The position numbers were made by a program, and so were the translations under genes. The notes beneath the pieces are model-generated. The model was not told the DNA's origin. It saw nothing but the letters and a program-made list of their open reading frames with translations, and did not search any database. From assembly GCA_016195985.1 (NCBI GenBank), contig JACPYP010000007.1:186001-250000 (forward strand): a DNA stretch of 64,000 bases, given 5' to 3'. Shown here one piece after another: positions 2,013-9,600 of the stretch. Within the stretch, counting starts at the first letter, position 1. The number at the start of each line of letters is the position of its first letter. This stretch comes from Acidobacteriota bacterium. Its GTDB lineage: Bacteria > Acidobacteriota > Holophagae > Holophagales > Holophagaceae.

Positions 2013-4112
2013 TCACGACACAGTCCCCAGGTTCACGACCCGGACATCCATGGGAACCTCGCTATGGCTCAGCACCACCAGGTGGGGCAGGGCCCGTTCC
2101 AGCAGGCGCCGCAGGTGGGGGCGCACCACGGGGTTGGTGAGCAGCACCGGCTGGGCGCCGGGCAGCATGGCCGTGATGCCGTTGGCGATGCGGGAGAGCA
2201 CCTCTTGCGTGCGGCCCGGCTCCAGGGCCAGGAAGCTGCCCCGTTCGGTTTGCTCGATGCCGCCCTGGAGGGTCTGCTCCAGGCTGGGGTCCAGCACCAG
2301 CACGCCCAGCTCGCCCGTGTCGGACAGGTGCGGGCTGGTGAGCACCCGGCCCAGGGCCTGGCGCACGTACTCGGTGATGAAGCCGATGTCCTTGGTCATG
2401 CCCGCGGCGTCGGCGGTGGCCTCCAGGATCCGGCCCAGGTCGCGGACGGGCACCCGTTCCCGCAGGAGGTTGTGCATCACCTTCTGGAGCGTGGTCACGC
2501 TGATGACGTTGGGGATGAGGTCGTCCACCAGCTTCGGCGAAGTCTCCTTCAGGGTGTCCAGCAGGTGCTGCACTTCGGGACGGCCCAGCAGTTCGGTGGC
2601 GTGCTGCTTGATGAGCTCCGCCAGGTGGGTGGTCAGCACGGTGGCTGGCTCCACCACGGTGTAGCCCAGCATTTGGGCCCGGTCGCGCTGGGCGTCGGGG
2701 ATCCAGTAGGCGGGCAGGCCGAAGGCCGGTTCCGAAGTGGGAAGGCCCGCGAGATCCTCCGTGGCGGTGCCGGGATTCATGGCCATGAACTGGTTGGGTT
2801 GCAACTCCGCCCGGGCGATCTCCTCGCCCCGGAGCAGGAGGCGGTAGACGTGGGGCGCCAGCTGCAGGTTGTCCCGGATGCGCACGGGCGGCACCACGAT
2901 GCCCAGTTCCTGGGCCATCTGCCGCCGGACGGCCTTGATGCGTTCGAGCACGGTGCCGCCCTGGTTCACGTCCAGCAGGGGGATGAGGCTGTAGCCCACC
3001 TCGAGGCCGAGAGGGTCGATCTTGAGCAGGCCCTCCACCCGGTCGGCGCTTTCCGCCGCCGCGGTCCGGGCTTTTTCGGCGGCAGCCGCGTCCTCGGGCC
3101 CGGTGGCTTCCGCCTTGGGCAGTTTCCAGGCCGCGTAGGCCATGACGCCGAAAATGGCGGCCATGACCCAGAAGGGGAAGAGGGGCAGGCCCGGCACCGC
3201 GCCGAACAGGAAGAGGATGGCCGCGGCGATGGCCAGGGGCCGGTGGTCGGCGCCCAGCTGGCCCATGACCTCGCTGCCGAGGCCCGAGGCGTCGGTCCCG
3301 CTGCGGGTGGTGAGGATGGCGCCGCCCACACTGATGAGCAGGCTGGGGATCACCGTCACCAGGCCGTCGCCCACGGTGAGCAGGGTGAAGACCTCCAGAG
3401 CCTGCGCGACGGGCAGGTTGTAGCGGACCACGCCCAGGATGATGCCTGCCACGATGTTGACGGCCAGGATGATGAGGGCGGCCACGGCATCGCGCTGGGT
3501 GAATTTCACGGCGCCGTCCATGGCGCCGTAGAAACCGGCCTCTTCCTGCAGGTCTTTCCGGCGGCGGCGGGCTTCCTGCTCGTCGATGTAGCCCGCGTTC
3601 AGATCGGCGTCGATGGCCATCTGCTTGCCGGGCATGGCGTCCAGGGTGAAGCGTGCGGTCACTTCCGCGATGCGGCCCGCGCCGTGGTTGATCACCAGGA
3701 ACTGGATGGCCAGCAGGATGAGGAAAACGACCAGGCCAATGACGTAGCTGCCGCCCACCACGAACTGGCCGAAGGCCTTCACCATGTGGCCGGCGGCGTC
3801 GGCGCCCTGATCGCCGGCGTAGAGCAGAATGCGGCGGGTGGTGGCCACGTTGATGGCCAGCCGGAACAGCGTCACCACCAGCAGCACGGAGGGGTAGGAG
3901 CTGAATTCCTTGGGGCGGCGCACATACATGCCCACCATCAGGATCACCAGGCTGAGCGTGATGTTCAGGACGATGAGCAGGTCCACCGCTAAGGCGGGCA
4001 TGGGCAGCACCATGACCACCAGCACGATCATGACGAACACGGGTGCAGCGAGATCCGACCGCCTGGCCAGGCGGCCCATGAAAGGAAGCAGACGGTCTAG
4101 AAAGGTCAACAT
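2013..4112 (-). CDS. flhA: Flagellar type III export gate protein FlhA
   Basis: This 699-aa protein is full length for FlhA. The N-terminal half holds about eight hydrophobic segments. Between them sits the conserved cytoplasmic loop with IDADLNAGYIDEQEARRRR and the FYGAMDGAVKFTQRDA segment typical of the FHIPEP family. The C-terminal half is the soluble cytoplasmic domain that docks export chaperones and substrates (segment GLEVGYSLIPLLD onward). FlhA forms the ring-shaped export gate of the flagellar secretion system in the inner membrane. It is followed 10 nt later by flhF. An unusual 283-bp leader made of hairpin repeats precedes its start at 4112. Confidence 0.95.
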   Translation of the reverse strand: MLTFLDRLLPFMGRLARRSDLAAPVFVMIVLVVMVLPMPALAVDLLIVLNITLSLVILMVGMYVRRPKEFSSYPSVLLVVTLFRLAINVATTRRILLYAGDQGADAAGHMVKAFGQFVVGGSYVIGLVVFLILLAIQFLVINHGAGRIAEVTARFTLDAMPGKQMAIDADLNAGYIDEQEARRRRKDLQEEAGFYGAMDGAVKFTQRDAVAALIILAVNIVAGIILGVVRYNLPVAQALEVFTLLTVGDGLVTVIPSLLISVGGAILTTRSGTDASGLGSEVMGQLGADHRPLAIAAAILFLFGAVPGLPLFPFWVMAAIFGVMAYAAWKLPKAEATGPEDAAAAEKARTAAAESADRVEGLLKIDPLGLEVGYSLIPLLDVNQGGTVLERIKAVRRQMAQELGIVVPPVRIRDNLQLAPHVYRLLLRGEEIARAELQPNQFMAMNPGTATEDLAGLPTSEPAFGLPAYWIPDAQRDRAQMLGYTVVEPATVLTTHLAELIKQHATELLGRPEVQHLLDTLKETSPKLVDDLIPNVISVTTLQKVMHNLLRERVPVRDLGRILEATADAAGMTKDIGFITEYVRQALGRVLTSPHLSDTGELGVLVLDPSLEQTLQGGIEQTERGSFLALEPGRTQEVLSRIANGITAMLPGAQPVLLTNPVVRPHLRRLLERALPHLVVLSHSEVPMDVRVVNLGTVS

Positions 4113-4161
4113 ACCGACACCCGCGGGGTGCGGGGCGAGGGCCGTGCCAGGGGCGAGCCGA

Positions 4162-4390
4162 CCCGGCTTTGCCGGGCAGAGCGCGGGGGCCCGGGGGTGT
4201 GCGCGGAGCGCGGAACCCCGGAGGAAGGAGCGGAAAAAGCGAAGCCCGGCTTTGCCGGGCAGAGCGCGGGGGTCCGGGGGTGTGCGCGGAGCGCGGACCC
4301 CCCGGAGGAAGGAGCGGAAAAAGCGAAGCCCGGCTTTGCCGGGCAGAGCGCGGGGGTCCGGGGGTGTGCGCGGAGCGCGGAACCCCCGGA
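4162..4390. repeat. Tandem 83/84-bp hairpin repeat upstream of flhA
   Basis: Nearly three copies of a unit beginning CCCGGCTTTGCCGGGC start at 4162, 4245 and 4329 (periods 83 and 84). Each unit carries that perfect short hairpin. A second, larger inverted repeat follows in each (in copy 2, GGGGGTCCG pairs with CGGACCCCC around a GC-rich loop). Units are joined by a purine-rich GGAAGGAGCGGAAAAAGCGAAG segment. Copies differ at only a few bases, so the duplication is recent or maintained. The array fills the gap between the NlpC/P60-like gene and flhA and would be transcribed as the flhA leader. No coding role is apparent. It resembles REP-type intergenic elements, but no family was recognised. 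Confidence 0.85.
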
Positions 4391-4394
4391 GAAA

Positions 4395-5093
4395 CTAGAT
4401 CTGGATCTCCAGGATGAGGATGCGCTCGCCGGGGCCGAACATGGCGCGCAGGCGATCCATGCCCTCCGGGGTGTCCAGGGCCAGGCGGTGGACCCGGCCT
4501 CCCGGCAGGGTCTGGTAGAACCCCAACCCGGCGTCCGAACGCAGCAGGAGGGCCACGTGGTGGTGGCGCAGGCCGCGCCCCGACCCCCGGTGGAGGGTGG
4601 CGAAGTAGACGCGGTCCTTCCGCCAGCGGCCTGACAGCCGGGTCCAGGCTTCCCTGTCCTGGACCCTGAAACCCTGGAGGGCCCGGCCCGAGGCGCCTGG
4701 GGCCGGCCGGTCCCCCTCCGGAAGCACCCAGCGCCGCTGGCGGCCTTCACTCAGGTTCAGCACCAGGTCCCAGCCGAAATCCCAGTCCTGGCCTCCAGGA
4801 GACCCGGCGCCGCTGTCACCGAGGCGATCCCGGCCCGCCTCGGCAAGGCTGCCCTGGAAGCCCAGCAGGCGCCGGGCCGCCGCCACCGCGAAGCCCGAGC
4901 AGTTGAGCCCCGGCGCGGGCAGGCTCGCGCCGGGCGGGGTGAAGCGCACGAAGCGCCCCTCCGCATCCAGGCCCGCATCCTCGGCATAGGGAATGCCCAT
5001 CAGGTCCCGGAGCGCGGCGGACAAATCCTGGGGGCCGGAGGAGGCGGGCCCCAGCATCAGCAGGCCCAGGGCGGCAGCCGGAAGGCGGCTCAC
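4395..5093 (-). CDS. Exported NlpC/P60-like cysteine peptidase (putative)
   Basis: This is a 232-aa protein if translation starts at the GTG at 5093, which overlaps the stop of the YraN-like gene (GTGA). That start gives a short hydrophobic leader (RLPAAALGLLMLGPASS) ending near residue 20, consistent with export. The segment LNCSGFAVAAAR, with Cys65, matches the catalytic Cys box of NlpC/P60 cell-wall peptidases. HHHVALLL at about 177-184 could supply the His. Cys-His spacing is longer than usual, so the family call is tentative. A longer in-frame reading to 5396 exists but overlaps yraN and looks spurious. The role would be peptidoglycan or other amide cleavage in the periplasm. Confidence 0.55.
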   Translation of the reverse strand: MSRLPAAALGLLMLGPASSGPQDLSAALRDLMGIPYAEDAGLDAEGRFVRFTPPGASLPAPGLNCSGFAVAAARRLLGFQGSLAEAGRDRLGDSGAGSPGGQDWDFGWDLVLNLSEGRQRRWVLPEGDRPAPGASGRALQGFRVQDREAWTRLSGRWRKDRVYFATLHRGSGRGLRHHHVALLLRSDAGLGFYQTLPGGRVHRLALDTPEGMDRLRAMFGPGERILILEIQI

Positions 5094-5464
5094 CGGGGGA
5101 CTCCCAGCGCGTCCCAGCGCTCCGGCGGGTGGAACCGGCAACGCCACCCCGCCCAGCTCACCCGCTGGAAGGAGATGGGGCCGGGCCAGGGCACCCGGTC
5201 CAGCCAGCCGCGCAGGGCCTTCTGGAGCCGCAGCCGCTGGTCGGGGGCCAGGGCCGTGTCGGCGCCCACCCAAGCACCGCGGCGCCGCGCCTTCACCTCC
5301 AGCAGCCTCAGTTCCGGCCCCCGGCTCAGCAGGAGATCCAGCTCCCAGCGGCCCAGTTTCTGACGCCAGGCCACCAGGTCCCACCCCCGGATCCAAAGCA
5401 GCCAGAGGGTCAGCCGCTCGGCCCGCAGGCCCAGGCGGCGGGCCGCCTCACCGCGCCGGGGCAC
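5090..5464 (-). CDS. YraN/UPF0102 family nuclease-like protein
   Basis: This 124-aa protein fits the UPF0102 (YraN) family, small proteins with a PD-(D/E)XK endonuclease-like fold. The expected pattern is visible: GWDLVAWRQKLGRWELDLLL (Glu41, Asp43) followed by LRLLEVKARR (Glu56-Val-Lys58). The GTG start at 5464 overlaps the end of the upstream GNAT gene by 17 nt, and its stop overlaps the start of the next gene. The biochemical role of the family is not settled. The active-site pattern suggests DNA processing in the cytoplasm. Confidence 0.78.
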   Translation of the reverse strand: MPRRGEAARRLGLRAERLTLWLLWIRGWDLVAWRQKLGRWELDLLLSRGPELRLLEVKARRRGAWVGADTALAPDQRLRLQKALRGWLDRVPWPGPISFQRVSWAGWRCRFHPPERWDALGVPR

Positions 5465-6645: not shown

Positions 6646-9600
6646 CAGGGCACGTAGCGTTCCAGGGCCTGGGTCTCCCTGGTGCCGAAGGCCAGCAGCA
6701 CGCTGCCGTCCGGCTGCAGGGTGGCGGTGTGGCCCGAGCGGGCCGTTTGCAGGGGCTCCGCGAGGCTCCATGCGCCGCTGGCCGGGTCGTAGACTTCCGT
6801 GGTCAACAGGACCGTGGCGCCATCCTTGCCGCCGGAGACCAGGACCGTCCCATTGGGCAGCAGCGTGGCCTGGTGGCCGGTGCGGGAGGAGGCCATGCCG
6901 CCCGTGGGGGCCCAGGTTCCCGTGCCCGGATCGAAGCGCTCGGCGCTGGACAGGGCGCCCACATTTCCGGTCCCCCCGGCCACCAGCACCGTGCCGTCGG
7001 CCAGGAGGGTGGCCGAATGGCCGGAACGGGCCTCGGCCAGACCGCCCGTGGTGACGGTCCAGACGCCTGTGCCAGGGGTGTAGCGCTCCGATGGAAGCAC
7101 GGCTCCGGCGGCGGCCAGGCCCCCGGCCACCAGCACGGTTCCGTCGGCCAGCAGGGTGGCGGAATGACCGGACCGGGCCGTGGCCAGGCCGCCGGCCGGG
7201 GTCCACCGCCGGGTGGCGGGATCATAGATTTCGGCAGTGGAGAGGGGGCCTGCTGCGTCAAGGCCTCCGGCCACCAGCACCCGTCCATCCGGAAGCAGGG
7301 TGGCGCTGTGGCCCGAGCGGGCTAGGCCCAGGCTGCCCGCGGGGGTCCAGGAACCGGTCGCGGGATCGTAGATTTCCGTGCTGCTCAAGTAGGCGGACCC
7401 TTGGACCCCGCCCGCCACCAGCACCGTGCCATCCTGCAATCGGGTGGCGGTGTGGTCCGTCCGTCCCGTGCTCAGGCTGCCGCTGAGGCTCCAGCTCTGA
7501 GTGGTCCCATCGTAGAGAAGGCTGCTGGCGAGAGTGGTGGAGGTGGGGTCCGACGGATCCGGGCCCGAACCGCCCGCCACCAGGGTTTTCCCGTCGGCGA
7601 GCAGGGTGGCGGAGTGGCCCGAGCGCCCGACGATGCTGGGGCCTGCCAGGATGAAGGTGGCGGAGAGCGTGTGATCCTCAGCCACGGCCAGGATGGTGTA
7701 CGTGGTGATGGCTCCCATGTTGGCGCCGTCCACGATGACGTTGGCCACCTCGTAGCCGGGGTCCGGCGTGATGGTGTAGGTCGGGCTGGTTCCGTAGTTC
7801 ACTGTAGTGGCCCCCGCCGGGCTGATGCTGCCGTTGGGCCCCGCGGTGGCCGTGATGGTGAAGGTCATGATCTGGGCGCTGACATCGAGGGTGTGGGGGC
7901 CGTCCATGGTCACGTCCCCGGTGGGGCCTACGGGAACGCCGTCCAGCAGCACCTGGAGGTTCTGGTAGCCGGGCTGCAGGCTGTAGGCGTAGTGCACCGC
8001 CGTTCCCGGGGTGTAGCCCAGGGTGGAAGCGGGCACGCCCGCGATGCCGCTGGTCTTGTTCACGGTCAGCACGAACTGGGGCAGGGGGCTGAAGGTGGCG
8101 CTGATGGTGTGGTTGGCGGCAAGGCTGACGAAACCGTAGGATGTCACCGCGCCCACGGAGGTCCCGTCCACCAGAACGTCGGCCACCTGGTAGCCGGGAT
8201 CCGGCGTCATGGTGTAGATCTGGCTGCCGCCGTAGTTCAGCGTGGTGGATCCGCTGGGGCTGATGCTGCCGTTGGCGCCTGCGCTGGCCGTGAGGGTGAA
8301 GGTCTGGATCTGGGCGCTGGCGGCCAGGGTGTGGGGGCCGTTCATGGTCAGGCTGCCCGTGGCCGCCACGGGACTGCCGTCGAGCAGCACGGACAGGTTC
8401 TTGTAGCCCGTCGCCAGGGTGTAGCTGTAGTTCACGGTGGAGCCCAGGGCCGGGGCCGAAGTGGCGCCGGGGGTGCCCGTGGTGCCCAGGCCCAGGGTCA
8501 CCGTCAGGATGGGCGAGAAGGTGGCGACGATGGTGTGATCGGCCACCACGTTGGTGAAGGTGTAGGTACCCGGCGTGCCCGCGGAGGTCCCGTCCACCAG
8601 CAGGCTGGTGAGCTGGTAGCCCGTGTTGGGCGAGAGCGCGAAGGTGAGGGTCGTGCCCTGGTTCACGACGACGGACCCAGAGGGGCCGATGCTGCCGTGG
8701 GGCCCCGAGCTGGCCGTGATGGTGAAGGTGCGGACCTGGAAGGTGGCGCTGATGGTGTGGTTGGCGGACAGGCTGGTGAAGGTGTACGAGGTTTGGGGCC
8801 CCACGGAGGCTCCGTCCACCAGGACGTTGGCGACCTGGTATCCGGGATCCGGGGTGATGGTGAAGACCTGGCTGCTGCCGTAGGGCAGGGTGGTGATTCC
8901 CGCGGGGCTGATGCTGCCGTTGGGCCCGGCGCTGGCGGTGAGGGTGAAGGTCTGCGGCACGGAGGTGGCGGTCAGGGTGTGGGGGCCGTTCATGGTCACG
9001 GTGCCCGAGGCCGCCACGGGGCTTCCGTCCAGGGTCACCGCCAGGCCTGTGAAGCCGGTCCGGAGGGCATAGCTGTAGGGCACCGCGGCGCCCGCAGCCT
9101 GGACGGCGGTGGCCGCGGGCGTTCCGGTCACCCCCGCATCGAGGGAGACCGTCAGCACCGGGGCGAAGGTGGCGGAGATGGTGTGATCGGCACTCACGTT
9201 CGTGAAGGTGTAGGCGGGCAGCGCAGCTACGGATGCGCCGTCCACCAGCAGGCTGGCGATTTGGTAGCCCGCGTTGGGCGTGATGGCATAGGCCTGGCCG
9301 TTTCCCTGGGCCACGGAGGTGGCGCCGGCCGGGCTGATGCTGCCGTTGGCCCCGGCGCTCGCGGTGATGGTGTACGTGCGGATCGCGGTGGCGGCCAGGG
9401 TGTGGGGCCCGTTCATGACGAGGGAGCCCGAGGCGGCCGCGGGGGTGCCGTCCACCGTGACCTGCAGGTTCTGGTAGCCGGCTTGCAGGGCGTAGCCGTA
9501 GGCCACGGCGGTGCCCTGGGCATAGGAGGCCGAGGCCGTGGGAGAACCCGTGACGCCGCTGCCGAGGCTGACGGTCAGGGCGTAGGTGGGAAGCGGTTGG

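Follow-up and report, generated by a model that had tools for sequence, protein, structure and literature searches.

As both flanking genes are read on the minus strand, the tandem array described here sits behind the stop codon at 4395-4397 of one gene and ends 49 nt before the start of flhA at 4112, in a window (the whole stretch of DNA that was analysed) of 64,000 nucleotides (Table 1). The repeat that the initial annotation had reported at this place is real: TRF placed it at 4162-4391 with a period of 84, 2.7 copies, 96% matches and a score of 428, the highest of the 12 rows obtained for the window. The units follow one another with start-to-start spacings of 83 and 84, and the near identity of the copies was borne out by a repeat search, in which two of the three 84-nt copies were 99% identical. 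The two inverted repeats per unit are present as well, namely h2 (GCCCGGC-AAA-GCCGGGC) and h1 (CCGGGGG...CCCCCGG with an inner GCGC/GCGC stem), and both a single 84-nt unit and the 150-nt stretch 4162-4311 folded more stably, on either strand, than dinucleotide shuffles (z -2.9 to -5.2). Along the transcript the order is thus TAG, 5 nt, h1, h2, T-rich tail; h1, h2, T-rich tail; h1, h2; 49 nt; flhA, with three copies each of h1 and h2 and a T-rich tail in the first two units only. A covariance model of h1 (R1) recovered no copies in the window at E<=1 beyond the three of the array, the preceding gene matched no Pfam family at E<=0.001, and the window gave no Rfam match at gathering thresholds (the best sub-threshold match to the array being Yfr1, at 17.5 bits versus a cut-off of 38). 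Elsewhere in the window, at 7117-7376, TRF marked a 144-bp tandem repeat (1.8 copies, 75% matches) that lies within a long open reading frame.

Table 1. Features of the array and its surroundings in the window, in transcript order
Feature	Position	Strand	Basis
Preceding gene, 3' part	4395..5099	-	ORF list; ends in TAG at 4395-4397
Unit 1: stop codon, 5-nt leader, hairpin h1, CCCCCGCG tail	4349..4397	-	R1 70.6 bits, E 9.6e-13
Unit 1 hairpin h2, GCCCGGC-AAA-GCCGGGC	4328..4344	-	Sequence, inverted repeat
Unit 1 T-rich tail TTCGCTTTTTCC, terminator-like	4316..4327	-	Sequence
Unit 2 leader and hairpin h1	4265..4313	-	R1 54.8 bits, E 2e-9
Unit 2 hairpin h2	4244..4260	-	Sequence, inverted repeat
Unit 2 T-rich tail	4232..4243	-	Sequence
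Unit 3 leader and hairpin h1	4182..4230	-	R1 51.8 bits, E 8.8e-9
Unit 3 hairpin h2, without T-rich tail; array end	4162..4177	-	Sequence, TRF
Sigma54-like -24/-12 motif TGGCACGGCCCTCGCC, possible flhA promoter, outside the array	4134..4149	-	Kept in 29/29 flhA upstream regions
flhA (FHIPEP family), downstream neighbour, outside the element	2013..4112	-	Pfam PF00771, E 1.5e-254

In the source genome, the genus of which was inferred as Geothrix, we found 26 DNA matches to the array and, with model R1 (built from 45 copies), 36 copies of h1, which we grouped into 26 sites, six of them tandem. The hairpin is therefore not confined to a single copy at this site, and the suggestion of a dispersed repeat family made in the initial annotation survives. 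As many as 10 of the 26 sites, as we grouped them, are located on one contig (C30) of 416 kb that makes up 9.8% of the assembly (binomial P about 1e-4), which indicates that the elements are clustered in this genome. By DNA comparison all 25 sampled genomes of the genus matched and none of 16 genomes from other genera of the class. The model placed h1 in all 28 sampled genomes of the genus (4-39 copies each) and, outside it, in four of the 17 genomes taken from the rest of the family (1-5 copies); the 16 genomes from the remaining families of the class had none. Likewise, the 10 matching genomes in a sample of 149 from the phylum all belong to this genus, and a pattern scan of named genomes returned at least 113 stretches, with all of the 80 matches listed titled Geothrix, Holophagaceae or Acidobacteria. 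No match to the repeat was found in a phage collection. We found no published description of the family among reports on repeats of Geothrix, Holophagaceae or Acidobacteriota, in a search that covered few subscription journals. In our view the array is likely to represent a local tandem expansion of one member of a lineage-restricted, REP-like family of non-coding palindromes that lacks a RAYT and resides at gene ends, oriented in the sense of the gene upstream. The bacteria in which the family occurs live in soil and sediment.

Across sites the unit consists of a short leader, the sequence-conserved hairpin h1 and the locus-variable, terminator-like hairpin h2. The leader usually opens with a stop triplet (T-R-A, then T-R-Y-T-C-T); in the alignment of 45 sequences the consensus leader is GATGTTCT, followed by CCGGGGG, and the consensus of h1 reads CCGGGGGTTCC-GCGC-TNC-GCGC-ACACCCCCGG-RCCCCCGCG, with an unpaired TTCC and a second C-tract conserved. 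Within the h1 stem 95.9% of the cells are paired versus 93.9% in shuffles (reached by 0 of 500), and the covariation score was reached by one of 500 shuffles; pairs changed on both sides numbered two, a value reached by 359 of 500 shuffles and therefore no excess. A putative bistable fold of h1, pairing the G-tract with the second C-tract, gave 78.3% paired cells versus 78.4% in shuffles and no covariation, in a calculation whose structure string was shifted by one column along part of the helix. The stem of h2 scored 26.6 versus 14.0 for simple shuffles (112 sites), and the 8 nt behind it contain on average 3.4 T, with four or more at 56 of the 112 sites, a moderate T-richness, counted without a control.

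Longer forms of h1 also occur, of roughly 100-170 nt and with extra arms, for example at loci L301, L124, L120 and L048; possibly the long form is the full-length element and the short form a deletion derivative. No autonomous form, with an open reading frame between h1 halves, was recognised when halves up to 5 kb apart were paired in the fetched loci: of 196 pairs, 171 were less than 100 nt apart, 21 were at 100-229 nt (long forms and neighbouring array units) and four at 580 nt or more, one of which (L059) lies inside flhA. A comparison for homogenisation of h1 within genomes was uninformative, because the sites had been chosen by exact h1 pattern.

The position of the element relative to genes was read at 148 sites, taken in two overlapping sets, one of which was picked by the exact h1 pattern; the calls of coding regions and stops rest on a home-made codon score. 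The distance from the called stop to CCGGGGG was 6 nt at 72 sites, 3-5 or 7 nt at 28, 8-15 nt at 15 and beyond 15 nt at nine, and 24 sites had no called stop, although in some of these one can be seen on inspection 6 or 7 nt away. A called coding stop lies within 30 nt ahead of the element at 115 of the 148 sites, and these involve 41 distinct upstream genes, with a modal spacing per gene of 6 nt in 23 and of 3-7 nt in 37 of the 41. On the other side, none of the 65 sites with a value in the first set (71 sites) has the coding stop of a convergent gene within 30 nt of the 3' end of h1. The next gene, given for 112 sites (for 23 of the 148 it was not given and 13 were too short), is co-directional at 72, convergent at 35 and unclear at five. 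The element was found between sucC and a following gene and between rpmA and a following gene, which from their translations we take to be sucD-like and obgE-like, respectively. The element is also present behind non-coding ends: of the 26 rnpB loci that could be read, 16 matched a loosely defined pattern for the beginning of h1 some 36 nt past the search word, one or more of these matches being doubtful; other non-coding hairpin ends carry h1 with no reading frame, and the leader at such places is often like CTGATGTTCT or CTTATGTTCT. Translational coupling via TGATG was considered and rejected, as the ATG is not kept across sites.

A further finding came from comparing the ends of the same gene with and without the element. 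We read 30 loci each of purH, rpmA and sucC (Pfam AICARFT/IMPCHase, ribosomal L27 and CoA-ligase, respectively; the short names are ours) from the 42, 43 and 46 genomes that have the gene. The element was found at 7 nt or less in 11, 20 and 5 of the 30 loci, respectively, and at wider spacing in 0, 0 and 4, by a fuzzy pattern that misses worn copies; an earlier pattern had given 10/30, 21/30 and 9/29 filled loci in all. The filled orthologs at 7 nt or less end in TGA (33) or TAA (3) and never in TAG (n=36), whereas the unfilled ones end in TAG (30), TGA (13) or TAA (7) (n=50). A Fisher test of this contrast gave 4e-10 with relatedness ignored, a value that is too strong because the loci are related. 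Counted over the 115 sites with a called stop within 30 nt, there are 53 TGA, 28 TAA and 6 TAG at a spacing of 6-7 nt (n=87) and 6 TAA, 7 TAG and no TGA at 3-5 nt.

At sucC the change extends into the protein end. Of the 21 unfilled loci, 15 end in IK and four in VK followed by the stop, which is TAG in 16, and the four wider-spaced filled loci retain K-TAG; in two of these (L364 and L374) a further TGA or TAA stands 6 nt ahead of h1. The five close-spaced filled loci have R, S, S, A or K as the C-terminal residue, followed by TGA or TAA. More generally, at the 13 distinct sites with a spacing of 8-15 nt the triplet that stands 6 nt ahead of h1 is a stop codon in four cases and either a stop codon or one change away from it in 11, compared with 5% and 26%, respectively, of background triplets. 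For purH and rpmA the last residues are identical in filled and unfilled loci, so an altered C-terminus was seen at one gene only. Taken together, the sequences make it most likely that the element usually supplies its own stop codon, TGA or TAA. The units kept would then be those whose stop ends the upstream reading frame at once, and an in-frame stop of the element's own combined with such retention would explain the spacing of 6 nt without any further cause. The simplest account of this spacing would thus be that the element brings its own stop, although the six TAG sites among the 87 close-spaced ones and the window itself, with TAG at 5 nt, do not show it; the gene preceding the array may use its native stop.

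The ends of sucC also show how sites change. In unfilled loci such as L351 the stop is joined directly to the sequence found behind h2 in filled loci such as L350, which indicates that leader, h1 and h2 are gained or lost as one block; elsewhere unfilled ends have either an ordinary terminator or a palindrome from a different family. Such other palindrome families (CCACCAAGG..., CCACGGAG..., CCACGAAGGACACGAAG and CTCGCAGAGG) were observed behind the same genes in some genomes without h1 there (L263-L286, L320-L345 and L376), and at L259 the purH-like stop is followed by a CGCGAA-type repeat and then by a gene that is presumably GxxExxY-like. Of 30 copies of five other palindrome families, 16 stand 6-23 nt from a called stop when stops up to 60 nt away are considered. 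It is as if gene ends were common landing places for palindrome families. Regions of h2 behind the same gene in two genomes resemble each other more closely (0.772, 63 pairs) than those behind different genes (0.670, 1599 pairs; pairs not independent), which indicates that many sites are old and inherited. Arrays, for their part, arise locally.

With regard to a role, the unit would be transcribed as the tail of the upstream mRNA, where it might act as a 3'-end block that protects from 3' exonucleases, causes weak termination or shields from Rho, or might merely be tolerated. Given how the element is oriented and placed, a protective, weakly terminating or shielding role in the tail of the upstream mRNA is the most likely one, and the moderate T-richness behind h2 and the presence of the element ahead of the sucD-like and obgE-like genes argue against strong termination as its general job. 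A more specific possibility, which we regard as rather unlikely, is that the element is a mobile gene-end cassette comprising its own stop, an mRNA-tail hairpin and a terminator-like hairpin, which is moved by a non-Y1 mechanism and can replace the ending of a gene harmlessly.

The position could also result from targeting rather than survival, if the element were mobile and its insertion machinery recognised stop codons or gene ends. The tight placement behind 41 distinct genes, the presence or absence of the entire leader-h1-h2 block directly behind sucC and the retention of the leader behind rnpB, where there is no stop codon, agree with this; nevertheless it seems unlikely, since the close-spaced stop appears to be the element's own and the spacing then needs no targeting, a search for Y1 transposases found no enzyme in this genome, and the likeness of h2 at the same gene points to many old sites. 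A functional RNA element that the ribosome reads on terminating, at a fixed number of nucleotides behind the stop codon, would likewise fit the spacing and orientation, the conserved unpaired TTCC and second C-tract and the excess of pairing in h1 over shuffles. We regard it as quite improbable, given that the same leader and h1 occur behind rnpB and other non-coding ends, that spacings of 3-5 and 8-15 nt exist and that a stop of the element's own accounts for the 6 nt.

Among known repeats, REPs resemble our element in behaviour. According to PMC3733652 they are short, dispersed, intergenic palindromes found mostly downstream of coding regions, most convergent REPs of P. entomophila and S. 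wittichi being within 20 bp of ORF 3' ends, and in many cases a neighbouring ORF takes its TAG stop codon from the end of a GTAG REP. Our element shares the dispersed short palindromes, mostly outside genes and with 115 of 148 sites within 30 nt behind a called coding stop, and, like a GTAG REP, has an end that appears to supply the stop of the flanking ORF, here TGA or TAA (36/36 filled versus 20/50 unfilled loci), whereas the REP uses TAG. A repeat that supplies a stop codon is therefore already known in kind from GTAG REPs.

In a classic REP/RAYT system, h1 would be a REP mobilised by a genome-encoded tyrosine (Y1) transposase, and the dispersed short palindromes near gene 3' ends, as in the published REPs (PMC3733652), speak for it. 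A check for a RAYT-type transposase had been proposed in the initial annotation; the Y1_Tnp profile (PF01797) gave no match in the source genome, while 5 of 14 control genomes matched. Within the genus only 5 of 47 genomes have PF01797, two of them with several equal-scoring copies, and in the 10 loci read of the 15 Y1 places no h1 half was found with two changes allowed; according to PMC2817692, a RAYT gene always has REPs on its flanks. We therefore rejected a RAYT as the mover of the family. The consensus, moreover, shows neither a GTAG nor a CGTC tag at the base of its stem, and the six tandem sites of the source genome are head-to-tail, with all units of a site on the same strand, as in the direct array of the window, and not alternating as in BIMEs. 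The element also differs from REPs in its second, locus-variable hairpin and in its tens of copies, REP copies usually numbering more than 100 (PMC2817692). A classic REP/RAYT system is accordingly very improbable, and the element is REP-like in behaviour yet is not classed as a REP.

Two other systems deserve comparison. MIRU of Mycobacterium tuberculosis occur in tandem arrays and have DTGA as their target. They resemble our element in being short repeat units at codon boundaries of genes, and PMC12548453 describes their insertion at start codons, where an ORF inside the repeat is coupled to the gene. Unlike MIRU, our element is anchored at the stop codon, its leader in the window lacks an ATG, and the frame is not kept at both of the unit spacings, 83 and 84. 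DNA uptake signals form part of terminators in Neisseria and the Pasteurellaceae. The likeness is a conserved word within terminator-like hairpins behind genes (PMC1852404), but h1 is present in only tens of copies per genome (4-39). The present data set, which spans dozens of related genomes with tens of sites in each and includes both filled and unfilled ends of the same gene, bears on the question of why bacterial palindromic repeats sit behind stop codons, and suggests as an answer that the repeat brings the stop.

The initial annotation had considered the array a leader of flhA, a reading that found no support: the unit stands behind the stop of the preceding gene just as it stands behind unrelated genes, and a sigma54-like motif lies between the array and flhA. 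Of the 36 among 47 genomes of the genus that have flhA, 30 loci were fetched and 29 could be read (one was cut, and two have less than 900 nt upstream). In all 29 the start codon is preceded by TGGCAY...CTCGCCCC...GGTGTCGGT, with the GG and GC of a -24/-12 element correctly spaced, which by its consensus we take to be a putative sigma54 promoter. The array itself is present in this genome only and absent at the 28 other loci, in a comparison of one genome per species; in the nearest sister, G020, whose FlhA is 97% identical, a similar end of the preceding gene carries only a remnant, TAG-GTTCT-CCGGGGG, and no h1 was found upstream of flhA in the remaining 27 loci read. The amplification suggested in the initial annotation is supported as a local, lineage-specific one. 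Probably flhA uses its own predicted promoter downstream of the array, which looks like the tail of the preceding gene and not like a switch of flhA; conspicuous as it is next to a flagellar gene, and tempting to misread, the repeat goes with the gene that precedes flhA. That its copy number would switch or tune flagellar expression is very improbable, for while the array is lineage-specific and directly upstream of flhA in gene order, the sigma54-like motif separates the two in 29/29 loci, the 28 other flhA genes read have no array upstream and unrelated genes carry the same unit behind them. In many, not all, of the 29 loci we also observed a palindrome, ACCC-N3-GGGT, between the sigma54-like motif and the flhA start codon.
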